DNA of 64,000 bases. Source: Cohaesibacter marisflavi (GTDB lineage: Bacteria > Pseudomonadota > Alphaproteobacteria > Rhizobiales > Cohaesibacteraceae). The position numbers and the translations under genes were made by a program. The notes under the pieces are model-generated. The model did no database searches, was not told where the DNA came from, and saw only the letters and a list, made by a program, of their open reading frames with translations. How positions within the stretch are numbered: position 1 is the first letter of the stretch; each line of letters opens with the position of its first letter. Positions 7,904 to 26,426 of this stretch are shown in pieces. The stretch covers positions 124,001 to 188,000 of the forward strand of contig NZ_FOVR01000001.1 in NCBI RefSeq assembly GCF_900115225.1, in the 5' to 3' direction.

Positions 7904-8773
7904 ATGAAATTATCAATCAATCAGATGCGCGCAGTGGAAGCCGTTGTGCGCACTGGCAGCTTCTCTGCTGCGGCCAAAGAGTTGGGCATTTCCCAACCCT
8001 CGGTTTCCAACCATCTCTCTGCGTTGGAAAAGCACTATCGCACACAATTGATCCATCGAAACGGGCGTCAGGCCGAGGCGACGGAAACCTGCCGCGAAAT
8101 CCTGTCACGCATTCGTTCCGTTCTGGCTATGACCGACGAGATCGAACATGCCCTTGAAGGGCGCCGGCGCATGCAGGCTGGTTCACTGCGTCTTGGCTAT
8201 TCCACCTATCAGTTTGCTATGCCCATTTTGTCAGACTTCATGACCCAGTTCCCGGAGGTGGAGATTGAAGCGCGCGCCATGGCTTCGAATGACCTTTTGC
8301 CCCTGCTGGAAGATGGCAAGTTTGATGTTGTTTTCATTACCTCGGATGAGGCGCCAAGCAGTTTGTATGTCGAAAAGATCCGCACTGAGCGGATCGTTCT
8401 CGTTGTCCCGCCGGATCATCCACTCTGCGGGAAGGGCTCGGCCAGTTGGCAGGATGTAGCCAATGCGGCTCTCGTGCAGAGGGAAAACAGCTCAGGCACG
8501 CGTCGGGTGTTTGAAAAGGCTGCAACTTCAGCTGGAGTGAAGCTGAACACGGTGCTTGCACTGGGGTCCTGGGGCGCTATTGTAACCACGATCAACAGCG
8601 GTATGGGCATCGGCGTAGCGATGGAAGGCGAGGTGCTGCCTTCCAACAATTTGGTCATCATTCCCATTGAAGATGAAACCCTCTCCGTTTCGCACTATCT
8701 TGCTTGCCTGCCAGAGATGCAGCATGTCTCCGCGATCAGGGCAATGTTCAATGCCCTTCAAGACAATGAGTGA
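7904..8773 (+). CDS. LysR-type regulator of the AEP operon
   Basis: 289 residues. The N-terminal winged HTH (about 1-60, LSINQMRAVEAVVRTGSFSAAAKELGISQPSVSNHLSALEK) is textbook LysR, followed by a linker helix and a periplasmic-binding-like effector domain from about 90 (LRLGYSTYQFAMPILSDFMTQFP). It heads the operon in the same direction as the transporter and phnWX genes, with a 161-bp gap that holds a T-N11-A palindrome. LysR regulators next to phnW commonly respond to AEP or its aldehyde; here that is inference from context. Confidence 0.9.
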   Translation: MKLSINQMRAVEAVVRTGSFSAAAKELGISQPSVSNHLSALEKHYRTQLIHRNGRQAEATETCREILSRIRSVLAMTDEIEHALEGRRRMQAGSLRLGYSTYQFAMPILSDFMTQFPEVEIEARAMASNDLLPLLEDGKFDVVFITSDEAPSSLYVEKIRTERIVLVVPPDHPLCGKGSASWQDVANAALVQRENSSGTRRVFEKAATSAGVKLNTVLALGSWGAIVTTINSGMGIGVAMEGEVLPSNNLVIIPIEDETLSVSHYLACLPEMQHVSAIRAMFNALQDNE

Positions 8774-8842
8774 AAATAGAAGTGGAAATCCCCGGCGGGG
8801 TGCGCGTCAGAATTGTGACTGTTCTATGTCATGACCCAATTG

Positions 8843-8857
8843 ATAGCTTTAAGCTAT
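8843..8857. promoter_or_regulatory. LysR-type box before the AEP transporter operon
   Basis: ATAGCTT (8843-8849) and AAGCTAT (8851-8857) form a perfect 7-bp inverted repeat with one central T; the core is a T-N11-A LysR motif (8844-8856). It lies 78 bp before the substrate-binding protein start, suitable for activation by the upstream LysR. Confidence 0.55.
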
Positions 8858-8934
8858 AGATAATGAATGTTCATAAAACTGTTAAATAGTGTCTCTAGGA
8901 AGGGGCTGCTCGATCCAAACAGGGAGACCTTCCA

Positions 8935-10989
8935 ATGAGCCCCAAATCCGTTTTTCTCGCCGGAGCGGCCTATGTCGCGCTGAGCGCTTCTGCCTTTGCT
9001 GCTTGCCCGGTAGCGACTGTTGCAGATATGAAAGGCCTGACCTCTGCCTATCCTGAGCAGTTTGAGTTGGCCGAATTTCAAAAAGCAGGTAGCTGCGAGC
9101 TGTCCTTTGCCCAGAACCCGGATATTGCCAAATTCAACAGCCAGATCCTCGGTAACAAAGAGCTGCCTGCGCTTGCGGATCGTTTGCCGCAAGAGCCACT
9201 GGTCGTGGCTCCTTATGATACAGTCGGCACCTATGGTGGTGTGATCACCGGTCTTTCCAAGGGGACTGAATCCGGCACCTCGGATCTTCTCTCCGTGCGC
9301 CATGTGAATCTAGTGCGCTATGCCGATGACCTTCAGACTGTGGTTCCGAACATTGCCAAGAGTTGGGAATGGAATGACGACTACACGCAGCTGACCTTCA
9401 CCCTGCGCAAGGGTCATAAATGGTCTGATGGCGAGCCTTTTACCGCTGCCGATATCGAATTCTGGTATAACGATCTGATCCTGAACAAAGATGTTTACGA
9501 GAAGACGCCGGGCCGCTGGCTGTTCGCCGGAGAGCCTGCTGCTGTCAAGGCGCTGGATGATGTTACCGTCTCCTTCACCTTCCCTGTGCCGACACCAGGC
9601 ATTCTCAACCGCTTCGCCGTTGACTATGGTCAAGCTTTCCAGCCCAAGCATTTTCTCGCCCAGTTCATGCCGAAATACAACAAGGATGCCGACAAGCTGG
9701 CCAAGGATATGGGGCTTGAGAATGGCGTTGCGGCAATCAAGATGTATTATGGCGGCTCCGACTGGAAAGACGTGCCGAGCCCGCTGCTGAAGGATGCTGA
9801 AGTCGCTGAGAGATTCGGTCGTGCCGTGGTGCCGACGCTGGAATCCCACATTGTGGTGGAAGAAAATGCCGAAGGCCGCAAGCTGGTCGCCAACCCTTAT
9901 TTCCATATGGTTGACACCGCTGGCAATCAGCTTCCCTATATTCCAGAAATTGACGAAAGCTACGTCAAGGACAAGGAAGTCCAGAATCTGAAGATCATGA
10001 ATGGTGAAGTTGTCTGGAAACAGCAGGCCGTCTTCTTGGAGGACTTCCCGCTGCTCAAGGAGAATGAAGCCAAGGGCAACTATACCGTTTCCTACGCGCC
10101 GACCTTCGGGGAGAATATCTTCTTCTCCTTCAACCGCACCCACAAGGATCCGGTGCTGGCCAAAATGTTCAATGACATCCGCTTTGAACGCGCCATGTCC
10201 ATTGCGCTGGATCGTGAAGAAATCAACGAGATTGTCTATCTGGGGCAGGGGACGCCGGCACAGGGTGTACCGGCCGAACCAAAGACCGTGTCTTTTGTTT
10301 CCGAAGACATCCTCAATCAGGATATCGAATTCGATCCTGATCATGCCAGAGAGTTGCTCGCCGATATGGGCCTCAAGGATGCTGATGGCGACGGCACGCT
10401 GGAACGTCCGGATGGCAAGCCGCTGGTGATCCGCCTGATTTATTCCTCTCAGGGTGTGCCAGTGAAGATGATGGAACTGGTGCGCGACTATTGGTCCGCC
10501 GTGGGTGTTCGCATCGATCTCAAAGAGGTGACTTCTGATGAATATCGCGCTGGCGCCAACAACAATGATCTTGATCTGACGACCTGGAAATATGACGGCA
10601 CCGCCGGTCCTGCCATTTCTCAGGATGTGACTGCGTTCATCCCGCCATTCGGGGATGTCTTCAACCCGGGCACCGGCTTTGCTTGGGCTCAGTGGATGGA
10701 TTCCGATGGCAAGGAAGGCGTGGAGCCACCTGCTTATGTCAAGAAGCTCTATGACCTGTCCGAGCAGTTCCTACAGGTTTCCATGGGCTCTGAAGAATCC
10801 AATAAACTGGGTGCCGAGATCGTCAAGATCCATGTCGACAATCTGCTGAAAATAGGCACCGTCGGCGATATCGTCGCGCCATTCATGTATCGTAATGATC
10901 TGAAAAACGTCAAACCGATCAAAGCCAAGTCTTACGACTTCTACTGGACATACCCATACCGCCCACAACAGTGGTTCCTGTCCAAATAA
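8935..10989 (+). CDS. ABC importer substrate-binding protein, family 5 (Opp/Dpp type)
   Basis: 684 residues with a signal peptide (FLAGAAYVALSASAFA, cleavage near residue 22). The mature start CPVATVADMKGLTSAYPEQFELAEFQKAG... is an N-terminal extension of about 70 residues with cysteines near 23 and 53. The family 5 core follows (VPNIAKSWEWNDDYTQLTFTLRKGHKWSDGEPFTAADIEFWY, about 136-180). Dpp/Opp binding proteins are usually 500-550 residues, so this is a long variant. Ribosome site AGGGAGA at 8921-8927. It is the first of five transporter genes leading into phnW. The ligand is inferred to be AEP or a larger AEP conjugate. Confidence 0.9.
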   Translation: MSPKSVFLAGAAYVALSASAFAACPVATVADMKGLTSAYPEQFELAEFQKAGSCELSFAQNPDIAKFNSQILGNKELPALADRLPQEPLVVAPYDTVGTYGGVITGLSKGTESGTSDLLSVRHVNLVRYADDLQTVVPNIAKSWEWNDDYTQLTFTLRKGHKWSDGEPFTAADIEFWYNDLILNKDVYEKTPGRWLFAGEPAAVKALDDVTVSFTFPVPTPGILNRFAVDYGQAFQPKHFLAQFMPKYNKDADKLAKDMGLENGVAAIKMYYGGSDWKDVPSPLLKDAEVAERFGRAVVPTLESHIVVEENAEGRKLVANPYFHMVDTAGNQLPYIPEIDESYVKDKEVQNLKIMNGEVVWKQQAVFLEDFPLLKENEAKGNYTVSYAPTFGENIFFSFNRTHKDPVLAKMFNDIRFERAMSIALDREEINEIVYLGQGTPAQGVPAEPKTVSFVSEDILNQDIEFDPDHARELLADMGLKDADGDGTLERPDGKPLVIRLIYSSQGVPVKMMELVRDYWSAVGVRIDLKEVTSDEYRAGANNNDLDLTTWKYDGTAGPAISQDVTAFIPPFGDVFNPGTGFAWAQWMDSDGKEGVEPPAYVKKLYDLSEQFLQVSMGSEESNKLGAEIVKIHVDNLLKIGTVGDIVAPFMYRNDLKNVKPIKAKSYDFYWTYPYRPQQWFLSK

Positions 10990-11019
10990 AGCCATCGACA
11001 AGGCTGCTCTAACCAATCA

Positions 11020-11065
11020 GGTGCGGGGAATGCTCTCCGCACCGGTGCCTGCCCATGTCGGCAGG
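11020..11065 (+). other. Two tandem hairpins after the binding-protein gene
   Basis: First hairpin: GGTGCGGGGA (11020-11029) with TCTCCGCACC (11034-11043), 10 bp including one G-U pair and a 4-nt loop. Second: CCTGCC (11048-11053) with GGCAGG (11060-11065), followed by GTTTTCC. Such elements after a binding-protein gene often protect its mRNA or attenuate read-through so that the binding protein exceeds the membrane parts. Confidence 0.55.
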
Positions 11066-11087
11066 GTTTTCCTGTGGGGATCCGAGA

Positions 11088-12083
11088 ATGCTTCGTTTTA
11101 CGCTTGAGCGACTGGTTGGCATGATTGTCACGATGGTGCTTGTTTCCATGATGGTTTTTCTGATCATGGAAATCCCACCTGGTGACTATGCGGATCGCTA
11201 TGCCTTCCGCAAATATTCAGGCACCGGTATCGCCATTACGGAAGCGGACATTGAGGCCATCCGGCATGATTTCGGCCTCGATAAACCCATGGCACTGCGC
11301 TATGTCGACTGGATTGGCAACATCGTTCTACATGGCGATTTCGGGCAGGCCTTCGCCTTTGAGACCGATGTGACCAAGGTCATCGGCGACAAGGTCTGGC
11401 TGACAATGGCGATCCTGTTTGGAACATTGCTGCTCACCTATCTGATAGCCATCCCAATAGGCATCTATGCCGCTGTCAGACGGGCCTCTTTTGCCGATTA
11501 CGGTCTCACGATCTTTTCTTATCTGGGGCTGGCTCTGCCCAACTTCCTGCTGGCTCTCATTCTGCTTTATTTCGTCAATCTCTGGTTCGGTGCGGACATT
11601 GGTGGATTGTTTTCAACGGGCATGTCCGATGCGCCTTGGTCCTTTGCCAAGGCATGGGATCTGATCAAGCATCTGTGGCTTCCGGCCTTCGTGCTGGCCT
11701 GGTCTGCGGTCGCCTATCAGATCCAGACCATTCGCGCCACCATGTCAGATGAACTCAACAAGCTTTCGGTTACGGCAGCGCGTGCCCGTGGTGTGCCGGA
11801 GACCAAGTTGCTGATCAAATATCCCGCCCGCCTTGCCATCAATCCGGTGGTCTCCACCATCGGCTTTGACGTCAACCGAATCTTCTCCGAGCTCCCCATC
11901 GTTGCCGTCGTGCTGGGGCTGACAGAGCTCGGCGAATTGCTGCTCAATGCCTATCTCGATCTCGACATGTATGTCGCCGGAGCCATCCTGCTGATGCTTA
12001 CCTTTGTGATTGTGTTGATGAACTTCATTTCGGACCTGCTGCTGGCCTGGCTTGATCCACGCATCAAACTGGGGAGCAATTGA
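11088..12083 (+). CDS. ABC permease, DppB/OppB family
   Basis: 331 residues, several membrane spans, beginning MLRFTLERLVGMIVTMVLVS as in DppB-like subunits. The binding-protein-dependent permease signature with the coupling helix is around LNKLSVTAARARGVPETKLLIKYP (about 220-243). The ATG at 11088 follows a GGGGATCC stretch; an earlier in-frame ATG at 11055 falls in the loop of a hairpin and lacks a ribosome site. It forms the channel with the next gene. Confidence 0.9.
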   Translation: MLRFTLERLVGMIVTMVLVSMMVFLIMEIPPGDYADRYAFRKYSGTGIAITEADIEAIRHDFGLDKPMALRYVDWIGNIVLHGDFGQAFAFETDVTKVIGDKVWLTMAILFGTLLLTYLIAIPIGIYAAVRRASFADYGLTIFSYLGLALPNFLLALILLYFVNLWFGADIGGLFSTGMSDAPWSFAKAWDLIKHLWLPAFVLAWSAVAYQIQTIRATMSDELNKLSVTAARARGVPETKLLIKYPARLAINPVVSTIGFDVNRIFSELPIVAVVLGLTELGELLLNAYLDLDMYVAGAILLMLTFVIVLMNFISDLLLAWLDPRIKLGSN

Positions 12084-12085
12084 TC

Positions 12086-13261
12086 ATGGCAGATATCACA
12101 GACACCTGCGCTTCCATGGTGACCTCAACCAAAGGAAAGAAAGAAAGCGCGAAGGAACACAAGAAGCGCCTCAAATATTATTCAGCCAGCCAATGGACCC
12201 TGATCTGGTGGCGTTTCCGTCGCCATCGTGCAGCCATGGTTGCTGCTGCGGTGCTTATCTTCATGGCGTTGTTGGGCATCTTTGCCGAGTTCGTGGCGCC
12301 CTATGGCCCAACTAGCCGCGACACCAAATATCTTGATGGCGCGCCTCAAGTGCCGCTCTTCTGCGATCAGAATGGTTGCTCATGGCGCCCCTTCGTGCAT
12401 GGTGTCAGTACAAAGCGAGATCCCGTGACGTTGCGGGCTATTTCGGTGCCCGATCCCGAGAAGCGTGTCTATCTCACCTTCTTTGCCCAAGGGGAAAAGA
12501 CAGAGCTCTTGGGCTTTATCCCCTCCAAGACCCATTTCTTTTTGTTGGATGACAAGCGTGCCAAGCTGCATCTTTGGGGCACGGATGATCTGGGCCGCGA
12601 TGTCTTTTCGCGCACGATCTATGCAACCCGTACCTCGCTTTCTATCGGTGTGATTGGCGTGTTGATCTCTTTCGTGCTCGCTCTCATCATCGGTGGCGTG
12701 GCTGGCTATGCTGGGGGCTGGGTGGACAACATCATCCAACGCGTGACCGAGGTTATCCGTGTGGTGCCGATCATCCCGCTCTATATGGGGCTGGCCGCAG
12801 CCATGCCCAAGGAATGGTCCACCACAGAAGTCTATTTCGCGATGACGCTCATCCTAGGCTTTTTTGGTTGGCCCACGCTGGCTCGACGCATCCGCTCACA
12901 GTTACTTTCCATCCGTTCGGAGGATTATGTGGTGGCGGCACGGCTGGCCGGAGCGCGCCCGTTGCGCATTATTTCCCAGCATATGCTGCCCAGCTTCACC
13001 AGCTTTATCATTGTCGATCTGGTGATTTCGTTCCCCTACATGATCCTCAGCGAGACGGCGCTGTCCTTCGTCGGCCTCGGCTTGCGCCCCCCCACGGTGT
13101 CTTGGGGTGTTTTGTTGCAACAGGCCCAGTCGGTGCGAGTCATCGAGCAGACGCCTTGGCTGTTTATTCCCGCAATCTTCGTGGTGTTGGCCGTGCTGGC
13201 CTTCACTGTGGTGGGCGATGGTCTTCGCGATGCGGCCGACCCATATTCTGACGCACGATAG
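12086..13261 (+). CDS. ABC permease, DppC/OppC family, with long external insert
   Basis: 391 residues, longer than the roughly 300 of DppC. A basic N-terminus and first membrane helix (about 52-72) are followed by an insert of about 100 residues (TSRDTKYLDGAPQVPLFCDQ... to FFLLDDKRAKLHLWG) before the usual DDLGRDVFSRTIYATRTSLSIG segment. The coupling region SEDYVVAARLAGARPLRIISQHMLP lies near 280. Similar inserts occur in YejE-like permeases. Start ATG at 12086 follows GGGGAGC; it is 2 bp past the previous stop, so the two are translationally linked. Confidence 0.88.
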   Translation: MADITDTCASMVTSTKGKKESAKEHKKRLKYYSASQWTLIWWRFRRHRAAMVAAAVLIFMALLGIFAEFVAPYGPTSRDTKYLDGAPQVPLFCDQNGCSWRPFVHGVSTKRDPVTLRAISVPDPEKRVYLTFFAQGEKTELLGFIPSKTHFFLLDDKRAKLHLWGTDDLGRDVFSRTIYATRTSLSIGVIGVLISFVLALIIGGVAGYAGGWVDNIIQRVTEVIRVVPIIPLYMGLAAAMPKEWSTTEVYFAMTLILGFFGWPTLARRIRSQLLSIRSEDYVVAARLAGARPLRIISQHMLPSFTSFIIVDLVISFPYMILSETALSFVGLGLRPPTVSWGVLLQQAQSVRVIEQTPWLFIPAIFVVLAVLAFTVVGDGLRDAADPYSDAR

Positions 13262-13282
13262 GAAACGGGAAGGATATCAATC

Positions 13283-14284
13283 ATGCTGAAAGTAGAAAAT
13301 CTCTCCATTTCCTTCCGCACCGATGAAGGGCTGATCACGCCGGTTCAGGATATTGCTTTTGAAGTCCAGCCGGGGCGCACGCTGGGCATCGTTGGGGAAT
13401 CCGGCTCGGGTAAATCCATCTCCACCAAGGCACTGATGCAGCTATTGCCCGGCAACGGCATCATTTCCAGTGAAGCGAAAATTCTCTATACCGACAAATC
13501 CGGAAAGACACGCGATATCAACAGGCTGGGAAAGAAGGGAAGGGCCATTCGCCATATTCGGGGTGGCGAAATAGGTATGATCTTTCAGGAGCCCATGGCG
13601 TCCTTCTCTCCCGTTTACACCATCGGTAACCAGATGGTGGAAGCGATCCGGCTGCATCGCAATGTCGGACGCAAGGATGCGCGCCGCATCGCCGTAGAAA
13701 TGCTCGACAAGGTGGGTATATCCAACCCGGAAGCACGGGTGGATCAGTATCCTCACGAAATGTCCGGCGGCATGCGTCAGCGGGCGATGATTGCACTGGC
13801 CCTGTCGGCAGGGCCCGCTTTACTGATCGCCGACGAGCCGACTACCGCGCTGGACGTAACCATTCAGGCACAGGTGCTTGAATTGATGCGTAACCTTCAG
13901 CGCGATCTTTCCATGGGCATGATTTTCATTACCCATGATCTAGGCGTTATTTCCCATATCGCCGATGATGTGGCGGTGATGTATCTAGGGACGATTGTTG
14001 AGCGAGGCCCGACCGACAAGGTCATCCACGAGCCAGCCCATCCCTATACGCAAGGACTGATCAAGGCCTTGCCCAGCGTCGACCGGCTGCATGACCGCTT
14101 GACGCCCATTCCCGGAGACATCCCCAGCCCCAACGACCGGCCCACAGGCTGCCCGTTTCATACCCGCTGCACCAAGGTGATTGCCGGGCTCTGCGATCAA
14201 CATCAGCCGCAGATTTTACAGGTGGGAGAAGATCACACCGTGCGCTGCTTCCTGCATGAAAAACAGCAAAGGGCAAGCGCATGA
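13283..14284 (+). CDS. ABC ATPase, DppD/OppD family
   Basis: 333 residues: Walker A GESGSGKS (38-45), Q-loop FQEP with Gln102, signature MSGGMRQR (160-167), Walker B LLIADEP (180-186), and the C-terminal oligopeptide-transporter extension with its cysteine-rich motif PTGCPFHTRCTKVIAGLCDQ. Ribosome site GGAAGGA before ATG 13283. It overlaps the next gene by 4 bp (ATGA) and powers the importer with it. Confidence 0.92.
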   Translation: MLKVENLSISFRTDEGLITPVQDIAFEVQPGRTLGIVGESGSGKSISTKALMQLLPGNGIISSEAKILYTDKSGKTRDINRLGKKGRAIRHIRGGEIGMIFQEPMASFSPVYTIGNQMVEAIRLHRNVGRKDARRIAVEMLDKVGISNPEARVDQYPHEMSGGMRQRAMIALALSAGPALLIADEPTTALDVTIQAQVLELMRNLQRDLSMGMIFITHDLGVISHIADDVAVMYLGTIVERGPTDKVIHEPAHPYTQGLIKALPSVDRLHDRLTPIPGDIPSPNDRPTGCPFHTRCTKVIAGLCDQHQPQILQVGEDHTVRCFLHEKQQRASA

Positions 14285-15432
14285 CCATGGACGCAACAAG
14301 GATGGACAACAGCACCAAACAAGAGAACGAGCTTCTCATCGAGGTCAAGAATCTTGAAGTCCGGTTCCCGATCCGCAAGAAGAAGCTTTTTTCATCTGAA
14401 GTCTCCTATCTGCGTGCGGTCGACGATGTCAGCTTTGACATAAGACGAGGCGAAACGGTCGGGTTGGTGGGAGAATCCGGCTCTGGCAAAACCACCGTTG
14501 GCCGCGCCATCCTGCGCGCCATTGACCCCACTGCAGGCGATGTGATCTTCCACACTCGCGAGCATGATATCTATCTCGACGAGCTGGAAGGAGAAGAGCT
14601 GCGCCGTTTTCGCAAGAAAATGGGCATGGTCTTCTCTGAAGGTCCCCATTCGATTGCGAATATGGCGAGTGACATTCTGCGTTCCTTTCGCCCGCGCATG
14701 AGCCTTGTCTTTCAGGACCCCTATTCTTCGCTTAATCCGCGCATGACTGTGCGTGACATCATTGCCGAGCCTCTGGTCGCATCCGGCATGATGAAAAATC
14801 GCGACAAGATCGATCAGCGGGTGCGCGATATCGCAAGTCGCTGCAAGCTCAATCTGGAGCATCTGCGCCGTTTCCCCCACGCATTCTCGGGCGGACAACG
14901 CCAGCGCATCTGCATCGCGCGGGCCTTGGTAACGCGGCCTGATTTTGTCGTATGCGACGAGAGCGTTTCCGCGCTGGATGTGTCCATTCAGGCAGAGATC
15001 GTCAATCTGCTCAAAGACCTGCAGGAAGAAATGGGCGTCGCCTTTCTGTTCATTGCCCATGATCTGTCTGTGGTGGCCCAAATGTCCCATCGTGTGGCCG
15101 TGATGTATGTGGGCAAGTTTGTTGAATATGCGCCTACCGAGAGTCTTTTCTATAAGCCGCGCCATCCCTATACACACGCGCTTTTGTCGGCCATTCCGAC
15201 CATAGATCCGGACGAGAGTTTCGATCCGATCAGGTTGGAAGGCGAAATTCCCAACCCGCTCGCCGCGCCATCCGGCTGTCGCTTTCACACCCGCTGCCCC
15301 TATGCCACGGAGCAATGCGCCAGTGAAATCCCGACTTGGCAGGAAATAGCGCCAGAGCATTTTGTGGCTTGCCACAGGGTGGATGAGTTCGATTTCTCGC
15401 GCGACAAACAAAGCGCAGATACCACCGATTAG
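14281..15432 (+). CDS. ABC ATPase, DppF/OppF family, with duplicated Q-loop segment
   Basis: 383 residues: Walker [10 protein letters not shown] (64-72), Q-loop [13 protein letters not shown] with Gln145, signature FSGGQRQRI (202-210), Walker B VVCDES (223-228), and the Cys motif [15 protein letters not shown] at the C-terminus. Between Walker A and the Q-loop it has about 30 extra residues. There [12 protein letters not shown] (109-120) resembles [12 protein letters not shown] (135-146), so the approach to the Q-loop looks partly duplicated. It overlaps the previous gene by 4 bp. The gap to phnW is 79 bp. Confidence 0.92.
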
Positions 15433-15511
15433 AAACCAGACCCAAAAGGGAGCAACCAGCTCTGCTGCTTCCCCAATAACCAAGAAAGTCTAACGAGAAG
15501 AGGATCGTCCG

Positions 15512-16726: not shown

Positions 16727-16749
16727 GGGCCATTCGGAGAGAGAAAATC

Positions 16750-17523
16750 ATGACACAGATAAAGGCGGTTATATTTGATTGGGCCGGAACGCTGGTGGAT
16801 TTCGGCAGCTTCGCGCCCATGGGCGTCTTCGTCAAATGCTTCGAGGAATTTGGCATCAAGGCGTCCATTGAACAGGCTCGTGCCCCCATGGGGTTGCCCA
16901 AATGGAACCATATCCGCACCATGATGGACGATGTCGCCATCGCAGCCCAATGGCAGGCCAAATATGGTCAGGCACCAACCGATGCCGATGTCGACAAGAT
17001 CTATGAGATCTTCGTACCAATGAATGAAAAGGTCGCTGCCGACTATGCCGATCTGGTGCCCGGTGCGCTGGAAACCATCGACTGGCTGCGTGCGCGCGGC
17101 ATCAAGATTGGCTCCACGACAGGCTATACCCGCTCGATCATGGAGCATGTCTTGCCTGTTGTGAAGAAACAGGGGTTCGAGCCGGACAATCTCATCTGTG
17201 CTGATGATCTGGCCGAGGGCCGCCCTGGTCCACTGGGTATGTATCAGAGCTTTGTGGATCTGGCTGTCTATCCGCCTTCTGCTGTCATCAAGGTGGATGA
17301 CACTGTGCCGGGCCTCAAGGAAGGTGTCGCCGCAGGCTGTATCACGGTCGGGCTGGCGCTCTCCGGCAATTTCGTCGGCAAGACGCCGGAAGAACTGGCT
17401 GCGCTTTCCGAAGGGGAAATTGCCAGCTTGCGAGAGGCTGCCACTGTGCTACTCAAAGAGGGTGGGGCGGATTATGTCATCGACACGGTGGCCGATCTGT
17501 CAGCCCTGATCGAAACACTTTGA
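16750..17523 (+). CDS. phnX: Phosphonoacetaldehyde hydrolase
   Basis: 257 residues, HAD superfamily. Nucleophile Asp10 in FDWAGT, Schiff-base lysine Lys51 in MGLPKWNHI (the feature that sets PhnX apart from other HAD enzymes), motif II STTGYTRS, and metal-binding CADDLAEGRPGP and KVDDTVPGLKEG. It cleaves the C-P bond of phosphonoacetaldehyde to acetaldehyde and phosphate. ATG 16750 follows GGAGAGAG; the gene starts 23 bp after phnW. Together they are the complete hydrolytic AEP pathway. Confidence 0.96.
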   Translation: MTQIKAVIFDWAGTLVDFGSFAPMGVFVKCFEEFGIKASIEQARAPMGLPKWNHIRTMMDDVAIAAQWQAKYGQAPTDADVDKIYEIFVPMNEKVAADYADLVPGALETIDWLRARGIKIGSTTGYTRSIMEHVLPVVKKQGFEPDNLICADDLAEGRPGPLGMYQSFVDLAVYPPSAVIKVDDTVPGLKEGVAAGCITVGLALSGNFVGKTPEELAALSEGEIASLREAATVLLKEGGADYVIDTVADLSALIETL

Positions 17524-17566
17524 TTGTTAAAAGATCCTTTGATCGGATTTGAGGAGAGCCCGTGCC

Positions 17567-19125: not shown

Positions 19126-19932
19126 CTAAAAGATGAAGCGATCCGAGCGATCCATGAAATCGTGCATATGCACCATGATCTGCTCTTCGTTGGCCAGCAC
19201 CACGCCATAGGCTGGAGCTTCGAAATTGCCATATTGCCCCTTCGGAGAGGATGTCATCTCAAGGGCCACCTGATGGTTGAGCCCGCGCATGCAGGAAACG
19301 GGCAGGCCGCGCCAATTGCCATAGACCATCCGATGGGCATGACCGACAAAAATATGCCGCACGCGATGGCGATGGAGCCTCAGGATCTGCCAGAAAGCCT
19401 CCGCATCTTCAAGGCGGCTCTCATCCATGTCGGGCAGACCAATGGCGAAGGGGGGATGATGCATGAACAGCATCACCGGCCCCGAGGTTTCGCTCAAGAC
19501 ACCTTTCAGCCATCCTTGCCTCTCTTCGCAATAACGCCCCACATCGCTGCCGCGCTGGCTGGTATCCAGAAACAGGCACAGGCCGAATGGCGTGCGCTTG
19601 GAGCCTTGAATGAAGCCGCAATCGCAGCGCTGTGCTTCGGGGAAATGAAAGCGGAAGGTACGCACGTCATCATGATTGCCAACGAGAAGATGGGACGGAA
19701 TGGACAGCCGCCGTAGTTCACGGGCAAATATTTCATAAGCAGCATCATCGCCATGGTGGGTCAGATCGCCTGTTATGACGACGAAGTCCGCATCATGATG
19801 CTCGCTGTTGATGCTGTCGATTGCCGCGCGCAACCTGCCTGCTGGCTGTTGGCCGTATACAGCACCGCCATCCTTGACAATATGGCAATCGGTCAGATGG
19901 ATGAATTTCAGCATATCGGGATTTTTGATCAT
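19126..19932 (-). CDS. Calcineurin-like metallophosphodiesterase (GpdQ/Icc type)
   Basis: 268 residues with the full class III phosphodiesterase set: TDCH (Asp15, His17), GDLT (Asp56), GNHD (86-88), MHHPP (His158) and GHAH (His198, His200). This layout fits GpdQ and Icc/CpdA, which hydrolyse glycerophosphodiesters or cyclic nucleotides; there is no signal peptide, so it acts in the cytoplasm. Its stop is 5 bp from the convergent stop of the ester hydrolase. It is divergent from the DeoR/Ugp-type operon, so it likely hydrolyses what that importer brings in. The first ATG is preferred over one six codons later because an AGGTG lies upstream. Confidence 0.85.
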   Translation of the reverse strand: MIKNPDMLKFIHLTDCHIVKDGGAVYGQQPAGRLRAAIDSINSEHHDADFVVITGDLTHHGDDAAYEIFARELRRLSIPSHLLVGNHDDVRTFRFHFPEAQRCDCGFIQGSKRTPFGLCLFLDTSQRGSDVGRYCEERQGWLKGVLSETSGPVMLFMHHPPFAIGLPDMDESRLEDAEAFWQILRLHRHRVRHIFVGHAHRMVYGNWRGLPVSCMRGLNHQVALEMTSSPKGQYGNFEAPAYGVVLANEEQIMVHMHDFMDRSDRFIF

Positions 19933-20277
19933 CTGGCAGGCACCTGTGTTTCAAGGCGGAAACGCTCGATGAGGTTCCCGAAGTCGGGCGACTATGCTCC
20001 GCAAAGATGACAATCAGATAATGGAATGACGACTCTTTGCTGACAAAAGACGAGACGGGCAGCATCAGCTCAGAGCACGGCCTTGCAGCACCGGAATCTG
20101 GCAGGAACGCCCTAACCAGAGCCGTCCCTATCGCTAGCCCTGTCATGCTTCCTTCATGCCGCGGGTTAAAAGCGATGGTCATTTGAGCATCTTTGCACGG
20201 TCGGGAAATTCAGAAAAGAATAGAAAATTCAGTCAGAAAAGAGATGGTTGTTAAAATCTCATGTTCATTTTCAATTT
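19933..20277. other. Divergent control region, left part
   Basis: No gene supported between the metallophosphodiesterase and the DeoR gene. The right part is AT-rich and contains ATGTTCATTTT (20261-20271), which resembles half of the palindrome at 20278-20305. Confidence 0.4.
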
Positions 20278-20426: not shown

Positions 20427-20478
20427 ACAAGGGCAAGGTAGCTTTTGGTGAGCTTCGCAAAGAGCGGATCAGGGCATT

Positions 20479-21297
20479 ATGAAACACTATAGCGAACGGC
20501 AATTGGAAATCATTCGGACGGTTACCGAAAGCGGCTTTTCAGCCATCGATGCCTTGTCCGAACAGTTCAATGTTTCCACTCAAACCATTCGCCGTGATGT
20601 CAACGCCCTGTGTGAACTTGGCGAGCTGCGTCGCGTCTGGGGCGGGGTTGAGCCACCACCCGTGAGCGGCAACTTGCTTTATGCCAAGCGCAAGATCATG
20701 AACGTAACCGCCAAGCGGCAGATTGCCTTTGAAGTTGCCAAACATATTCCCGATGGCAGCACCATAGCGCTCTCCATAGGCACCACCCCGGAAATGGTCA
20801 TCGAGGCCTTGCAGGAAAAGGCCAATCTCAAGGTCTTTACCAACAACCTCAATGTTGCCATGCAGGCAAGCGAACGCCACGACTGGTCTGTGACCATCGC
20901 GGGTGGCAGCGTGCGCCCGGGCGACAAGGACATTCTGGGCTCGGATGTGGAGGCCTTCTTTGATCGCTTCGAGGTGGACTTCGGTATTTTCGGCGTGGCG
21001 GGTGTGACGCCCGATGGCGGCCTGCTGGATTTCTCCGAGGCTGAAGTAGGGAGCCGCCGGGCCATCATGAAAAACAGTCGAAAGTCTTTTCTGGTCATGG
21101 ACCATACCAAATTCGGGCGCGCGGCCCATGTGCGGGGCGGGCATCTTTCTGATGTGTCCTGCATTGTCTGCGATGAACCCATTCCGCATCCATTTGAAAG
21201 CGGGCTTGGCTCGGCCAGCGTGATTATTGCCAATGAAACAAGCCGTGATGAGAAGGCTGACGCGAGCAACGACCCTTATGAGCGAGGCACGCGATGA
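20479..21297 (+). CDS. DeoR-family transcriptional regulator
   Basis: 272 residues. The N-terminal HTH (about 4-56, ERQLEIIRTVTESGFSAIDALSEQFNVSTQTIRRDVNALCELGELRRVWGG) is the DeoR signature. The C-terminal DeoRC domain holds IALSIGTTPEMVIEAL and TNNLNVAMQA, the phosphorylated-sugar binding loops typical of GlpR-like members. It overlaps the ATPase gene by 4 bp and leads the importer operon. Effector likely a phosphorylated metabolite of the imported compound (inference). Confidence 0.92.
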   Translation: MKHYSERQLEIIRTVTESGFSAIDALSEQFNVSTQTIRRDVNALCELGELRRVWGGVEPPPVSGNLLYAKRKIMNVTAKRQIAFEVAKHIPDGSTIALSIGTTPEMVIEALQEKANLKVFTNNLNVAMQASERHDWSVTIAGGSVRPGDKDILGSDVEAFFDRFEVDFGIFGVAGVTPDGGLLDFSEAEVGSRRAIMKNSRKSFLVMDHTKFGRAAHVRGGHLSDVSCIVCDEPIPHPFESGLGSASVIIANETSRDEKADASNDPYERGTR

Positions 21298-22379
21298 GCG
21301 CTGCACATCCGGCCCATCACGGGCGATCTATCGAGCTGCAGTCGATCTCCAAAAGCTGGGATCAGACCAAGGCGCTCGATAGCGTGAACATATCCATTCC
21401 CGCTGGTTCTTTTACAGCCTTGCTTGGACCATCCGGCTGCGGCAAGTCGACCTTGTTGCGCATCATTGCAGGTCTGGAAACCGCCACGGAAGGCACGGTT
21501 CGGATTGGCGATGAAGATGTTACTCGCCGCCCTCCAGATAAGCGCGATCTGTCCATGGTGTTCCAGTCCTACGCTCTGTTTCCGCATCTGGATGTGGCCG
21601 AGAATATCATATTTGGCCTCAAGACCCGCAAGGAGCCGAAGAAACAGCGCACCGAAAAGCTGCTCGCAGTTGCTGAGCTGATGGGCCTTGAAAAACTGTT
21701 GGATCGCAAGCCCGGCGCGCTTTCCGGCGGACAGCAGCAGCGCGTGGCGCTGGCCCGCGCCGTCATTGCAGAGCGTTCCATTTGTCTGATGGATGAGCCG
21801 CTTTCAAACCTTGATGCCAAATTGCGTCACGAGATGCGGGTCGAGCTGCGGGCCCTGCAACAAAAACTCGGTTTTACCATGGTCTATGTCACCCACGATC
21901 AGGCCGAGGCAATCACCATGGCGGATCAGGTGGTGCTGCTCAATGCAGGTCAGGTGGAACAGGTTGATGCACCACGCGCCCTTTATGATGCGCCACGCTC
22001 CACCTTTGCTGCCCGCTTTATCGGGACGCCTCCCATGAGCCTGTTCGAAGCCTCTGCGCTTGGCGATATGGGGCGGCAACTGAGCCGTGATGCCGGCACC
22101 GAACTGTTGCTCGGGCTTCGCCCGGAAGCAGTAACCCCTAATGAGAAGGGCCACTTGAAGGCCACCATCGCTGCCGCCGAGTTTCAGGGCGCAGACACCA
22201 TGCTCGATTGTCTGGTTGGCGATGAAATGATCACCGTGCGGGCCTCTGGCAGAAGCCATTTTGCTGCAGGCAGTCCGGTCTCCCTTTCCTTCGCTCCTGA
22301 GGAACTGGCCTTGTTCGACAAGGCATCAGGGGCACGTCTCATAAAGTCCCAAAAACTGGTCGAGGCCCTGCGGTCTTGA
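21294..22379 (+). CDS. ABC ATPase, UgpC/MalK type
   Basis: 361 residues. Walker A GPSGCGKS (45-52), Q-loop FQSYALFPH (90-98), signature LSGGQQQR (143-150), Walker B CLMDEP (164-169), D-loop SNLDAKLR, then a C-terminal TOBE-type domain (about 245-350). It is the energising subunit of a CUT1/Ugp-type importer whose other three parts follow. The ATGA overlap with the DeoR gene indicates translational coupling. Confidence 0.92.
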   Translation: MSAAHPAHHGRSIELQSISKSWDQTKALDSVNISIPAGSFTALLGPSGCGKSTLLRIIAGLETATEGTVRIGDEDVTRRPPDKRDLSMVFQSYALFPHLDVAENIIFGLKTRKEPKKQRTEKLLAVAELMGLEKLLDRKPGALSGGQQQRVALARAVIAERSICLMDEPLSNLDAKLRHEMRVELRALQQKLGFTMVYVTHDQAEAITMADQVVLLNAGQVEQVDAPRALYDAPRSTFAARFIGTPPMSLFEASALGDMGRQLSRDAGTELLLGLRPEAVTPNEKGHLKATIAAAEFQGADTMLDCLVGDEMITVRASGRSHFAAGSPVSLSFAPEELALFDKASGARLIKSQKLVEALRS

Positions 22380-22432
22380 TCGATAACCAAATCTATTTTT
22401 AACAGTCAAACAGGATGAAAAGGACCATACCC

Positions 22433-23713
22433 ATGGCTTCCCGTTTTCTCAAATCCACTCTTGCAGCAGCCATGCTTTCCGCTGTTGCCATGCCAGCATT
22501 TGCTGTTGACCTGCAATTCTATTTTCCGGTTTCTGTTGGCGGCAAGGCTGCTGATACCATCCAGTCGCTGACCGAAGACTATGTCGCGTCCCATGAAGAC
22601 GTGAATATCGATGCGATCTATGCAGGCTCCTATACCGACGCCCTGACCAAAGCCATGACGGCTGCCCGCGGTGGCAACGCACCTCAGCTTTCGGTGCTGC
22701 TCTCCACTGACATGTTCACCCTGATTGATCAGGACCTGATCGAGCCATTTGATGACTTCGTCACCGATGAAGAAGGCAAGGAATGGTTCGGCTCTTTCTA
22801 CCCTGCTTTCATGATGAACAGTCAGACCGGCGGCAAAACCTGGGGCATTCCTTTCCAACGCTCCACGCCCGTCATGTATTGGAACAAGGAAGCTTTCAAG
22901 GAAGCTGGTCTTGACCCGGACAAGGCCCCGGCAACCTGGGAAGAGATGGTCGACTATGCGCACAAGCTGACCAAAAAGGACGACAGCGGCAACGTAACCC
23001 AGTGGGGCCTGCGCATTCCGCTTGATGGTTTCCCTTACTGGCTATTCCAGGGGTTGTCCACGCCAGCAGGTGCCATTCTGGCCAATGCAGACGGCAACAA
23101 GACCGACTTTGCCAACCCGAAAGTGGTTGAGGCCCTCCAGTTCCTCGTCGATATGGCCAAAAAAGAGAAGGTCATCGAAGATGGTGTAACCTCTTGGTCT
23201 GCCACGCCGAAAGCCTTTTTCGAGCGTCAGTCCGCCATGATCTGGACCACCACCGGCAACCTGACCAACATCCGCACCAATGCTCCGTTTGATTTTGGTG
23301 TCGGCTTCCTGCCAAAGCATGAACGCTACGGCGCACCAACCGGTGGCGGCAACTTCGTTCTGTTCAAGGATGCCTCCGAAGACCAGAAGAAGGCCGCTGT
23401 CAATTTCGTAAAATGGATTTCTGCTCCGGAACAGGCTGCCAAATGGTCCATCGCAACCGGCTATGTCGCTCCAAGCCCGGCCGCATGGGAAACCGAAGCG
23501 ATGAAAGCCTACGCCAAGGACGTGCCGCAGGCTGCCGTTGCCCGCGATCAGCTTGAATATGCGGTTGCAGAGCTGTCCACCTATGAAAACCAGAAAGTGA
23601 CCAACTTCCTCAACGACGCCATTCATGCCGCTCTGGCTGGTGAGAAATCACCCAAGGAAGCGCTTGAAGAAGCTCAGAAGAAAGCGGAACGCGTTCTGAA
23701 AAACTATCGCTGA
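22433..23713 (+). CDS. ABC importer substrate-binding protein, UgpB-like (family 1)
   Basis: 426 residues. Signal peptide FLKSTLAAAMLSAVAMPAFA with cleavage near residue 24; mature start VDLQFYFPVSVGGKAADTIQ is close to the UgpB opening that binds the phosphate end of glycerol-3-phosphate esters. GKTWGIPFQRSTPVMYWNKEAFKEAGLDPDKAPATWEEM is the family 1 core. ATG 22433 is chosen because AAAAGGA lies at 22420-22426; the ATG six codons earlier has no spaced ribosome site. A sn-glycerol-3-phosphate or phosphodiester ligand is likely but not proven. Confidence 0.88.
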   Translation: MASRFLKSTLAAAMLSAVAMPAFAVDLQFYFPVSVGGKAADTIQSLTEDYVASHEDVNIDAIYAGSYTDALTKAMTAARGGNAPQLSVLLSTDMFTLIDQDLIEPFDDFVTDEEGKEWFGSFYPAFMMNSQTGGKTWGIPFQRSTPVMYWNKEAFKEAGLDPDKAPATWEEMVDYAHKLTKKDDSGNVTQWGLRIPLDGFPYWLFQGLSTPAGAILANADGNKTDFANPKVVEALQFLVDMAKKEKVIEDGVTSWSATPKAFFERQSAMIWTTTGNLTNIRTNAPFDFGVGFLPKHERYGAPTGGGNFVLFKDASEDQKKAAVNFVKWISAPEQAAKWSIATGYVAPSPAAWETEAMKAYAKDVPQAAVARDQLEYAVAELSTYENQKVTNFLNDAIHAALAGEKSPKEALEEAQKKAERVLKNYR

Positions 23714-23734
23714 TCCACTTTGCGATCGGCTTTT

Positions 23735-23766: not shown

Positions 23767-23799
23767 TGACTTTGCGATGGATCGCATGTGAGGGCAAGA

Positions 23800-24669
23800 A
23801 TGAGACGCGACTGGATATATGCTCTGCTGCTGCTGTTACCGGCGATGGTGCTGCTCATGGGCTTTACCCATATTCCAGCTATTGAAACCGTCATCAGCAG
23901 CTTTTTCTCGACGCCCCACGGACGTCGTCCGGCGCATTTCGTCGGTATCGATAACTATCTCTATCTGCTCGAAGACGATGTGTTTATCCGCTCTTGCTGG
24001 AACAACCTCATCTATGCCGCCATCACGATCCCTGCTTCCATCATCATTGCTCTGGTCATGGCGCTGTTTGTGCATAGCCGCATGGCTGGGCTTTCCTTTC
24101 TGCGCATGGCCTACTTCACACCGACCGTGCTGCCGATGATCGCGGTGGGCAACATCTGGCTTTTCTTCTTTACCCCAAGCTTCGGGCTCATCGACCAGAT
24201 CCGCGCCCTGTTTGATTTGCCCGCGCAGAACTGGATGGGCGACCCTGATACGGTCCTTTATACGGTGCTGGTGGTTGCCGTCTGGAAGAATGCCGGTTTC
24301 TTCATGATTTTCTATCTCGCCGCCTTGCAGACCATTCCGGAACCCTTGCGCGAGGCGGCCAAGCTGGAAGGGGCAGGGCGCTGGACCTTCTTCCGCCGCG
24401 TCACCCTGCCGCTGATCATGCCCACGACCCTGTTCATTCTGGTGAACGCCATCATCAATTCGGTGCGCCTCATCGATCATATTTTCATCATGACCCTCGG
24501 CGGGCCAAACAATGCCTCCAGATTGCTGCTCTATCACATTTATGAAACGGCCTTTGAATATTGGGACACCGCTTCGGCCAGTGCGATGACAGTGGTCATC
24601 CTGTTCGTTCTCTCGCTGTTGGCCATTGGGCAATTCTTCTGGCTCGATCGTAAGGTGCATTACAAATGA
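23800..24669 (+). CDS. ABC permease, UgpA-like
   Basis: 289 residues, about six membrane helices, starting MRRDWIYALLLLLPAMVLLMGF. The coupling EAA segment EAAKLEGAGRWTFFRRVTLPLIMPT (about 188-212) is typical of CUT1 permeases. ATG 23800 follows AGGGCAAG. It pairs with the next gene, overlapping by 4 bp (ATGA). Confidence 0.9.
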   Translation: MRRDWIYALLLLLPAMVLLMGFTHIPAIETVISSFFSTPHGRRPAHFVGIDNYLYLLEDDVFIRSCWNNLIYAAITIPASIIIALVMALFVHSRMAGLSFLRMAYFTPTVLPMIAVGNIWLFFFTPSFGLIDQIRALFDLPAQNWMGDPDTVLYTVLVVAVWKNAGFFMIFYLAALQTIPEPLREAAKLEGAGRWTFFRRVTLPLIMPTTLFILVNAIINSVRLIDHIFIMTLGGPNNASRLLLYHIYETAFEYWDTASASAMTVVILFVLSLLAIGQFFWLDRKVHYK

Positions 24670-25499
24670 CTGCTCAAGACACCTCGCTTGCAGCCCGTCT
24701 CGATCGGGTGCTGATGACCTTCGGGGCCTGGCTACTTGCCCTTCTATGGATTTTGCCACTGGCCTATGCCGTCTGGACAGCGTTCCACCCCTCGGCCTAC
24801 GAGACCAATTTCACACTGACCGCCCCGCTGACGCTGGAAAACTTTCCAAAGGCGTGGGTGCAGGCGCCCTTTGCGCGCTATTTCCTCAACACCATGATTC
24901 TGGTGGCCATGACGCTCAGCGCGCAGTTGGTGCTCAGCACATTCGCCGCCTATGCCTTTGCGCGGTTGAAATTCCCCGGCAAGACCATCCTCTTCACGCT
25001 GGTGCTGCTGCAGCTCATGGTCACACCCGATATTCTGTTGGTCAAGAACTATGAGACCATGGGCACCTTGGGGTTGGTGGATAGCATTCTGGCAATCGGG
25101 CTGCCCTATTTTGCCTCTGGCTTCTGCATTTTTCTGCTGCGCCAGACCTTCATGACCATCCCCAAAGAGCTTGATGATGCAGCGCGGATCGAAGGGGAAG
25201 GGCTGATCGGAACTCTCTGGCGGGTCTATATTCCGCTGGCTAAACCCACCTATCTTGCCTTTGGCCTTGTGTCGGTTTCTGCCCATTGGAACGACTTCCT
25301 GTGGCCGCTGATTGTCACCAACTCGGTGGAAACCCGTCCGTTGACCGTCGGGCTCTCTGTCTTTTCCATGACAGAATCCGGAGTGGAATGGTCGGTCATC
25401 AATGCCGCAACGCTGATGACCTCCGGTCCTCTTCTTGTGGGCTTTCTGCTTTTCCAGAGACAGTTTGTTCAAAGTTTCATGCGAGCTGGTATTAAATAG
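24666..25499 (+). CDS. ABC permease, UgpE-like
   Basis: 277 residues, about six membrane helices. The EAA-type loop is DDAARIEGEGLIGTLWRVYIPLAKPT (about 174-199), and the C-terminus FQRQFVQSFMRAGIK is a standard MalG/UgpE ending. It completes the importer formed with the preceding genes. A 105-bp gap with small hairpins separates it from the isomerase/epimerase gene. Confidence 0.9.
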   Translation: MTAQDTSLAARLDRVLMTFGAWLLALLWILPLAYAVWTAFHPSAYETNFTLTAPLTLENFPKAWVQAPFARYFLNTMILVAMTLSAQLVLSTFAAYAFARLKFPGKTILFTLVLLQLMVTPDILLVKNYETMGTLGLVDSILAIGLPYFASGFCIFLLRQTFMTIPKELDDAARIEGEGLIGTLWRVYIPLAKPTYLAFGLVSVSAHWNDFLWPLIVTNSVETRPLTVGLSVFSMTESGVEWSVINAATLMTSGPLLVGFLLFQRQFVQSFMRAGIK

Positions 25500-25524
25500 G
25501 CCAAACCAACGAGTCGGCCCGACC

Positions 25525-25583
25525 TTGACCAAATAGTCAAAGCCAGAAAAACGGATCTGAAATACGGGCCTGAAAAACAGGCC
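25525..25583 (+). other. Hairpins in the gap before the TIM-barrel gene
   Basis: TTGAC (25525-25529) pairs with GTCAA (25536-25540), and GGCCTG (25567-25572) pairs with CAGGCC (25578-25583) around AAAAA. No U-run follows the second. Likely mRNA processing or stability elements inside the operon. Confidence 0.4.
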
Positions 25584-25604
25584 AGATAAAAGGAATTACA
25601 TCCC

Positions 25605-26426
25605 ATGCCTCCATTGCCAGTGCTTGGCGCTTCGCTCAAATATGATGAACTTGTTTCTCTGAAAGACTGGATTTTTGAGAAGAACCGCACCATCGAATTG
25701 CAGGATTTCTGCATGGTGGATGTTCTGGATGACGATCAGGACGACCTGATCGAGGCCTATAAGGATGTTCTGGATGGCTTCAGGGGCCTGCATGGCATTC
25801 ACGGCCCGTTTTTCAGTCTCGATCTGGCTGCAACCGATCCGCTGATCCAGCAGGTTGTGACGGTGCGTCTGCTTGATGCACTTAACAAATGCGAAAAGCT
25901 GGGCGCGACACACATGGTCGTGCATAGCCCTTTCACTTTCTGGCACAGCCTCAATTTCACCAACTATGCCTATCTCAAGCCGAATATCTTTGAAGCAGCG
26001 CAGCGGATACTGGAACCTGTTGTCCAGCGCGCCGAGCAGATTGGTTGCTGCCTGATGCTGGAAAATATCGATGATGCCGATCCGGCGTTGCGCTGCGAAT
26101 TGGTGGAAATCATCAATAGCCCGATGTTGCAGGTTTCCCTCGATACCGGCCATGCCCAACTGGCCCATGGCCAGTATAAGGCCCCTCCGGTGGCGGATTA
26201 TGTGACTGTCGCCGGTCCGCTTCTGGGGCATGTGCATTTGCAGGATGCCGACGGCTTTGCCGATCGCCACTGGCATCCGGGTGAGGGTTCTATTCCCTGG
26301 GGCGGTGTCTTCAAGGCGCTATCGGACATCCACGCCGCGCCGCGCCTGATCATCGAAGCGCGCGACCGCAAGGAGCTGTTGCCGCAAACGGTTAAACATC
26401 TCGAGGCGCTTGGTTTGGCCGAGTAG
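25605..26426 (+). CDS. Sugar phosphate isomerase/epimerase-like TIM-barrel protein
   Basis: 273 residues of the AP-endonuclease-2/xylose-isomerase-like barrel. Probable metal ligands are visible in order: Glu in MLENIDDADP, Asp/His in SLDTGHAQ, His in GHVHLQDADG, DRHWHPGEG, and Glu in LIIEARD. These enzymes isomerise or epimerise sugars and related polyols, but the exact reaction cannot be read from sequence. As last gene of the DeoR/Ugp-type operon it probably acts on the alcohol or sugar part freed from the imported compound. Ribosome site AAAAGGAATT before ATG 25605. Confidence 0.75.
   Translation: MPPLPVLGASLKYDELVSLKDWIFEKNRTIELQDFCMVDVLDDDQDDLIEAYKDVLDGFRGLHGIHGPFFSLDLAATDPLIQQVVTVRLLDALNKCEKLGATHMVVHSPFTFWHSLNFTNYAYLKPNIFEAAQRILEPVVQRAEQIGCCLMLENIDDADPALRCELVEIINSPMLQVSLDTGHAQLAHGQYKAPPVADYVTVAGPLLGHVHLQDADGFADRHWHPGEGSIPWGGVFKALSDIHAAPRLIIEARDRKELLPQTVKHLEALGLAE

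Follow-up and report, generated by a model that had tools for sequence, protein, structure and literature searches.

The window analysed here is a 64,000-nucleotide stretch of the 5.34-Mb Cohaesibacter marisflavi genome (contig NZ_FOVR01000001.1, positions 124,001 to 188,000), and the system in question is the operon at 7904-19120, which encodes a LysR-type regulator, an Opp/Dpp-type importer, the 2-aminoethylphosphonate (AEP) catabolic enzymes PhnW and PhnX, and a formylglycine-type hydrolase. This operon is probably an uptake-and-use system for esterified AEP. It appears to place an ester-opening step ahead of the known AEP pathway, which would give the little-understood family of phosphonate monoester hydrolases (PMHs) a natural job. 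A design for esterified phosphonate is suggested by two observations: the clade of its importer is genetically linked to PMH beyond the window, and the PMH itself has been replaced, elsewhere, by a non-orthologous PMH. Gene content, the family membership of PhnW and PhnX, the PMH signature residues, linkage counts and the separability of neighbouring genes were established by sequence; substrates, cytoplasmic location, flux direction and regulation are predicted. In the proposed pathway, the family-5 binding protein (SBP5) would capture an AEP monoester, such as glyceryl-AEP from phosphonolipids or AEP carried on an oligosaccharide, and OppBCDF would import it. A cytoplasmic, aspartate-type PMH (D-PMH) would hydrolyse the P-O-C bond, releasing AEP and an alcohol. 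From AEP and pyruvate, PhnW would then form phosphonoacetaldehyde, with alanine as the second product, and PhnX would cleave phosphonoacetaldehyde to acetaldehyde and phosphate.

The AEP operon is compact and lies on the plus strand in the order LysR, SBP5, OppB, OppC, OppD, OppF, PhnW, PhnX, hydrolase. The spacings range from -4 to 161 bp, the PhnW and PhnX frames overlap by 4 bp, and the hydrolase frame begins 25 bp after PhnX. PhnW and PhnX score 467.1 and 330.7 bits against the NCBIfam equivalog models TIGR02326 and TIGR01422, above the respective cut-offs of 400.8 and 220. Every gene named in the original prediction, which was made from the letters of the window, was found as an open frame in the order given there. 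Its names PhnW and PhnX were confirmed, while the 'formylglycine-type hydrolase' is now specified as an aspartate-type PMH, the binding protein of the neighbouring 'Ugp importer' falls far under the UgpB cut-off, and the 'TIM-barrel isomerase' is an AP_endonuc_2 protein.

The hydrolase is a D-PMH by signature, with predicted activity. Its best relatives in the PDB are, in order, 4UPH, 2W8S, 2VQR and 4UPK, the first of which is ArPMH (PMC12421950), and its formylglycine motif CxPxR is present as CSPAR. PMHs are distinguished from arylsulfatases at two positions, where they carry Tyr and Asp/Thr, with Asp in the majority of PMHs, rather than Lys and His (PMC5488252). In the window enzyme, the corresponding residues (RlPMH positions 105 and 107) are Tyr and Asp. 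The enzyme also retains D12, Q13, R61, N78, H218, D324, H325 and K337, which we take to be the other active-site residues, and the assignment to the D-PMHs follows from this combination. The score against the PehA equivalog NF045661 was 455.8 bits, under the cut-off of 900, so the hydrolase is not named PehA. No signal peptide was seen by eye in the PMH, and SBP5 has one; the PMH should therefore meet its substrate in the cytoplasm. Compared with RlPMH (2VQR), BcPMH (2W8S) and ArPMH (4UPH), the sequence family, the formylglycine motif and the active-site residues are alike. The window enzyme differs from RlPMH and BcPMH in having Asp where these have Thr, and in its position in an AEP operon together with an importer. 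The RlPMH gene of Rhizobium johnstonii 3841 (plasmid pRL9; L302, 3499-10711; L and G numbers are our own handles for loci and genomes) lies directly beside another Dpp-type importer, and the 20 kb shown contain no phn gene. The Dpp-type binding protein of that locus is 61% identical to the one at L064, described below, and a sugar importer and a sugar phosphate isomerase/epimerase are located within about 6 kb.

The linkage between importer and PMH was examined in an order sample of 199 genomes, in which SBP5 gave 73 rows at E 1e-60 or better and PMH was counted at 300 bits or more. PMH was found within 10 kb of SBP5 in 12 of the 22 rows above 500 bits and in none of the 51 weaker rows (Fisher P 3.5e-8, a value that overstates the case, as rows within one genus are not independent). 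Four of the 12 linked rows belong to Cohaesibacter and the others make up 8 of the 18 rows outside the genus, four families being represented (f1, f18, f41, f51). A broader comparison used 22 loci whose flanks were long enough, comprising 19 of these 22 rows (G016, G057 and G096, on short contigs, were omitted), the Cohaesibacter metagenome-assembled genome McBI.23 (L077), plasmid pSC52_2 and Ruegeria conchae. A formylglycine-type hydrolase accompanies the importer in 18 of them, at a distance of 9 kb in R. conchae and across two contigs in G122, where the hydrolase lies beside oppF on another contig and the locus was treated as one operon broken by assembly. PMH residues are present in 16 of the 18, and no such hydrolase was found by the importer in the remaining four loci of this set (G100, G044, G037, G018). 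The importer-PMH linkage also occurs where phn genes are absent (L306-L312). In a tree of 23 SBP5 rows, the eight phn-linked ones, including that of the window, are separated from the rest by a branch supported at 100/100; two members of this group, G017 and G100, have a PbfD-type enzyme instead of PhnW.

The best single argument for a selected PMH activity, albeit a single case, comes from pSC52_2 (L301), a plasmid typed as mobilizable from Rhodobacteraceae bacterium SC52 of sea-cucumber intestine. Its genes follow the order of the window from SBP5 through OppB, OppC, OppD, OppF, PhnW and PhnX to the hydrolase, with identities of 76% (SBP5), 82% (OppB), 80% (OppC), 69% (OppD), 70% (OppF), 68% (PhnW) and 73% (PhnX). 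The hydrolase in the last position is only 33% identical to the window PMH and closest to 4UPK, which is named a phosphonate monoester hydrolase, and it has the PMH residues. Two different PMHs thus occupy one operon slot, and since the operon is otherwise similar, ester cleavage looks selected.

Several observations weigh against an operon dedicated to esterified AEP. Most genomes that have both PMH and PhnX do not have them linked. In the order sample, PMH (300 bits) is present in 38 genomes, PhnX in 30 and both in 15, with the two genes within 10 kb of each other in only seven (four Cohaesibacter, G017, G058, G098) and unlinked in eight. In a class sample of 385 genomes, compared by hand, the corresponding numbers are 67 for PMH (1e-70), 39 for PhnX (1e-40) and 18 for both, and proximity within 10 kb was found in three of the 18 (the genome of the window, G320 and G423; in G543 the distance is 14 kb). 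Of the 80 best named PMH loci, 75 lack PhnX in the fetched flanks, some of them short, and in Rhizobium lentis the PMH adjoins galE, an Mgl-type sugar importer and an M19 peptidase. G100 (L262) has SBP5-OppBCDF-PbfD-PhnX with no PMH nearby, so that the importer may take free aminophosphonate too. The best solved relatives of SBP5 are sugar- or peptide-type binders, and the genome of the window also has the C-P lyase protein PhnJ and phosphonate-binding (PF12974) proteins, that is, another phosphonate route. The PMH of L077 (10001-11551) carries CSAAR, the other listed PMHs fitting CxPxR; formylglycine formation may fail there, or the assembly may be in error. The single protein with the formylglycine-generating enzyme domain PF03781 in the genome of the window speaks for the proposed pathway, but this broad domain also covers other enzymes, and the protein is only a candidate for the modification on which the PMH would depend. 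Finally, the hydrolases of two sister-importer loci (G113 and G036) have the arylsulfatase pair Lys and His in place of the PMH residues. Along with the Pfam Sulfatase match of the window hydrolase, this fits a sulfatase in an operon that also frees sulfate, but such a role is extremely improbable given the PMH-type Tyr and Asp of the window enzyme and its best match, ArPMH.

Part of this evidence would be expected if free AEP (or N-methyl-AEP) were the imported compound and the PMH, a loose member of the operon, acted on something else, for example phosphodiesters, which PMHs hydrolyse too (PMC5649143). The PMH-free locus of G100 and the eight genomes with unlinked PMH and PhnX are consistent with this explanation. 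It is nevertheless rather unlikely, as the importer keeps its PMH also where phn genes are absent, the linkage stands at 12 of 22 against 0 of 51 rows, and pSC52_2 has a different PMH at the same operon position. A further alternative, less probable still, is that phosphonopeptides or AEP-bearing oligosaccharides are imported and that the PMH frees AEP from a sugar or other alcohol. The Opp/Dpp type of the importer and its closest solved binding protein, 7ver (SPH1118), whose ligand we take to be pectin, are compatible with such substrates, as is the presence of phosphonate esters on marine polysaccharides, on which a role of PMHs has been suggested (PMC5649143). However, the operon includes neither a peptidase nor a glycosidase, and the genes beside the sister importers of R. 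conchae and G051 seem to suit a small amino-alcohol ester.

In R. conchae, a sister importer (49%) and a PMH are located near genes for DeoR, an IMPase-family phosphatase, N-formylglutamate amidohydrolase, a glutamine-synthetase-family protein, and aldehyde and iron-alcohol dehydrogenases, all of whose NCBIfam matches are under cut-off. G051 carries the same gene set. Of its members, G018 has the aldehyde dehydrogenase and glutamine-synthetase-family genes, while G088 has an IMPase gene; besides single aldehyde dehydrogenase matches, no such set was found in the fetched flanks of the other sister loci. The R. conchae-type set may serve to break down a phosphorylated amino alcohol, for example glycerophosphoethanolamine, which is to phosphate what glyceryl-AEP is to phosphonate. 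This suggests that aminoethyl esters of both the phospho- and the phosphono- kind are handled jointly by importer and PMH. It can be tentatively proposed, with somewhat more doubt than confidence, that SBP5-OppBCDF and D-PMH form a widespread, so far unnamed module that takes up aminoethyl phosphonate monoesters and aminoethyl phosphodiesters, such as glyceryl-AEP and glycerophosphoethanolamine, and opens them in the cytoplasm. One group of the module would feed PhnW or PbfD and PhnX, and the sister groups an IMPase/glutamine-synthetase-type amino-alcohol route. If true, many PMHs would have their natural role in this module.

The association of PMH with PhnX appears in more than one form. A TIGR03364-like enzyme precedes PhnX, with a PMH, in Bosea psychrotolerans (L092), Rhizobium terricola (L082), Ectorhizobium quercum (L146, at about 8 kb) and plasmid p2 of Pararhizobium qamdonense (L300), and PbfD1, an N-methyl-AEP oxidase, is annotated in TIGR03364 (PMC10590968). 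PMH and PhnX with a TIGR03364/PbfD-type enzyme replacing PhnW are accompanied by other importers at L041, L092 and L300 and by the window-type importer at L042; the same replacement is seen at L242 and L244. On a PMH tree of 117 rows (quick search, SH-aLRT support, L300 and L301 left out), the label 'next to PhnX' (13 rows, including L146) requires seven changes, at least five of them being forced by well-supported branches, so the association has been gained or lost repeatedly. At L044 (G079:C19, 7878-10646), PhnW, PhnX and a phosphodiesterase 38% identical to that of the window are consecutive on one strand, so that PMH may be substituted in this AEP cluster by a GpdQ/SpdA-like enzyme. Two further lineages (L221, 10177-11844; L217, 4312-5172) have other formylglycine-type hydrolases, PehA/arylsulfatase-like and choline-sulfatase-like, about 1.4-3 kb from PhnX.

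The hydrolytic PhnW-PhnX pathway is known to have the ancillary enzymes PbfA, PbfB, PbfC, PbfD and PbfF (PMC12366243; PMC10590968). The window operon resembles these clusters in its core enzymes, in an ancillary gene that would widen the substrate range, and in the presence of a transporter and a regulator, but its ancillary enzyme would remove an ester. Word look-up found no such enzyme: 'ester' and 'sulfatase' are absent from PMC12366243, 'sulfatase', 'monoester' and 'diesterase' from PMC10590968 (with three unrelated uses of 'ester'), and 'monoester' and 'esterase' from PMC10574752. Like PhnCDE, PhnSTUV and AepXVW, which serve AEP catabolic genes (PMC10574752), the window importer would supply an AEP pathway; it differs from them in its Opp/Dpp type, its two ATPases and its 684-residue family-5 binding protein. 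Among the passages available from open-licence papers on PMH and aminoethylphosphonate, PEH and phnWX, or phnY, are mentioned apart, and a subscription paper could already connect them; no joint mention of phosphonoacetaldehyde hydrolase and sulfatase was found in the open-licence literature. An arylsulfatase has been described beside phosphonate biosynthesis, not catabolism (PMC9381506), and nitrophenyl compounds have been used on PMHs (PMC5488252). In the sections of the open-licence literature consulted, no physiological PMH substrate is named. PMHs serve as a model family for catalytic promiscuity, and most work on them has used synthetic compounds. Tied to AEP breakdown by operon, importer group and non-orthologous replacement, PMH now poses a natural-substrate question that is directly testable. 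The operon is also a candidate route by which marine bacteria would use esterified phosphonate, the form found in phosphonolipids and polysaccharides, besides free AEP.

Beyond the PMH gene, and convergent with it at 5 bp, lies a calcineurin-type phosphodiesterase (PDE) gene, divergent from a DeoR-Ugp-TIM unit (DeoR, UgpC, UgpB, UgpA, UgpE and TIM-barrel genes, plus strand, spacings -4 to 105 bp) across a 546-bp gap. The original prediction treated these genes and the AEP operon as a single island that jointly takes up and opens esterified phosphonates and glycerophosphodiesters. Its esterified-substrate idea is retained for the AEP operon, on the strength of the importer-PMH linkage and the PMH replacement, and abandoned for both modules as one block, which is now very unlikely. 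The modules are contiguous or nearly so in all four genomes of the Cohaesibacter sample with the AEP operon, G119 being without PDE, but a check of adjacency in relatives showed that they occur independently, the outcome that the original prediction itself had named as contradicting it. The AEP operon is present without the Ugp module in McBI.23 and on pSC52_2, Ugp, PDE and TIM genes without the AEP operon in G084 (L039), and PDE and TIM genes with neither the Ugp nor the AEP operon in G197 (L040). A conserved two-module island was rejected on these grounds. AraC-type and isochorismatase-family genes separate the modules in G175 and also in G119, and in four of six Cohaesibacter genomes two other genes stand at the site where the modules abut. 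Either gain of the AEP operon by some Cohaesibacter or its loss from G084 and G197 may explain this distribution. In G197, a short UgpE-like fragment (43%; L040, 8503-8664) lies at the site of the relatives' Ugp operon, and the Ugp module there seems to be decaying or cut out.

Import of glycerophosphodiesters by the Ugp-type module, also part of the original prediction, is doubtful as well. The UgpB-like protein scores 175.7 bits, below the UgpB equivalog cut-off of 411. As in the UgpBAEC glycerol-phosphate importer, whose gene set it shares, the phosphate ligands are kept, Tyr64, Ser143, Ser266 and Tyr342 corresponding to Tyr, Ser, Thr (a conservative change) and Tyr. In contrast, the glycerol ligands Glu88, Gly303, Arg393 and the Trp188/Trp191 clamp correspond to Ser, Gly, Thr and Trp/Arg, so that the set is incomplete. 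Glu88, Arg393 and Trp191 are glycerol contacts in the solved UgpB (MED193 numbering; PMC12718374). All three are replaced in nine of nine orthologues examined (at least 65% identity, window included, G173 left out), which makes glycerophosphodiesters doubtful as substrates and also argues against the joint island. The PDE resembles GpdQ/SpdA in its metallophosphoesterase motifs and has GpdQ as its best PDB match, but with its best model, SpdA NF050112, it reaches 213 bits, about half the cut-off of 400. Its full-length homologues outside the genus are at most 45% identical. A constant partnership of PDE and Ugp was rejected: G119 lacks PDE, and none was seen at L071-L074, L273 and L274, the six loci fetched for close UgpB relatives (58-68%) from outside the genus. 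More distant UgpB homologues (35-37%, 48-51%) do have a PDE homologue within about 3 kb in several genomes. The TIM protein could not be taken as a phosphodiester enzyme by context either, its neighbours being mixed and including, at some loci even with the same importer, a sugar-acid dehydratase or unrelated genes. At 20 fetched loci of 26 rows outside the genus, a Dpp-type importer was seen in eight and a PhnD-like protein in two; among those with neighbours scanned, two have a PF01663 phosphodiesterase, and these two proteins gave no NCBIfam model match at 1e-8. At L064 (2419-12141) and L066 (10009-17649), the TIM-barrel homologue stands with a Dpp-type importer and a PF01663 phosphodiesterase; L064 also has GDPD and HAD genes. 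PDE and DeoR-Ugp-TIM are proposed to be a separable system for a different phosphate-containing compound.

Table 1. Positions of the genes and candidate sites within the window.
Feature	Position	Strand	Remarks
PhoB-box-like direct repeat TTGTCAT-N4-nnGTCAT	7842..7859	+	45 bp upstream of LysR start; weak consensus
LysR-type regulator	7904..8773	+	phn_lysR TIGR03339 best model; LysR_substrate, HTH_1
SBP5, signal peptide-like N-terminus, proposed AEP-ester binder	8935..10989	+	PF00496; best PDB 7ver (SPH1118)
OppB-type permease	11055..12083	+	profile matches
OppC-type permease	12080..13261	+	profile matches
OppD-type ATPase	13283..14284	+	profile matches
OppF-type ATPase	14281..15432	+	profile matches
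PhnW, AEP:pyruvate aminotransferase	15512..16726	+	above equivalog cut-offs TIGR02326, TIGR03301, NF010006
PhnX, phosphonoacetaldehyde hydrolase	16723..17523	+	TIGR01422
D-type PMH (by signature)	17549..19120	+	CSPAR motif; Tyr and Asp at PMH/arylsulfatase-separating positions
Calcineurin-type PDE (SpdA/GpdQ-like), own transcription unit	19126..19932	-	metallophosphoesterase motifs aligned with GpdQ
PhoB-box-like site in PDE/DeoR gap, doubtful	20140..20157	+	2 mismatches
DeoR/GlpR-type regulator of second module	20479..21297	+	profile matches
UgpC-like ATPase	21294..22379	+	376 bits, cut-off 432
UgpB-like binding protein	22415..23713	+	phosphate-holding residues kept; three glycerol-contacting ones replaced
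UgpA-like permease	23788..24669	+	profile match
UgpE-like permease	24666..25499	+	profile match
AP_endonuc_2 TIM-barrel protein, epimerase-like fold	25605..26426	+	profile match

The AEP operon is probably controlled by a PhoB-box-like element together with LysR. The regulator scores 207.1 bits against TIGR03339 (phn_lysR), under the cut-off of 341.1, and is thus related to the AEP-associated LysR proteins and not assigned to them. A repeat resembling the PhoB-box consensus lies about 45-47 bp ahead of the LysR start in four of five Cohaesibacter genomes, including G119, where the flanking sequence is different. The TTGTCAT-N4-nnGTCAT form was not found in the 209 bp available upstream in L077, whose best site has three mismatches, and no comparable site was found ahead of LysR in L042 or of SBP5 in L301. 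A Pho box in the PDE/DeoR gap was rejected, its position not being conserved; one of four relatives' gaps (G175) has a good match, elsewhere and on the other strand. Base composition was uninformative as to a recent foreign island, with a GC content of 55.7% in the AEP operon and 55.5% in the window. In the corresponding region of Cohaesibacter haloalkalitolerans, the proteins are 83-95% identical to those of the window, with the exception of the PDE (64%). PhnJ and a PF12974 protein at G000:C28:456970-462193, on the same contig as the window, form a second phosphonate system. Beyond the TIM gene, an ECF-type ATPase and a CbiQ-like T component are encoded at 26822-28215, and they are found on the same side of TIM in G149, G175, G084 and G197.

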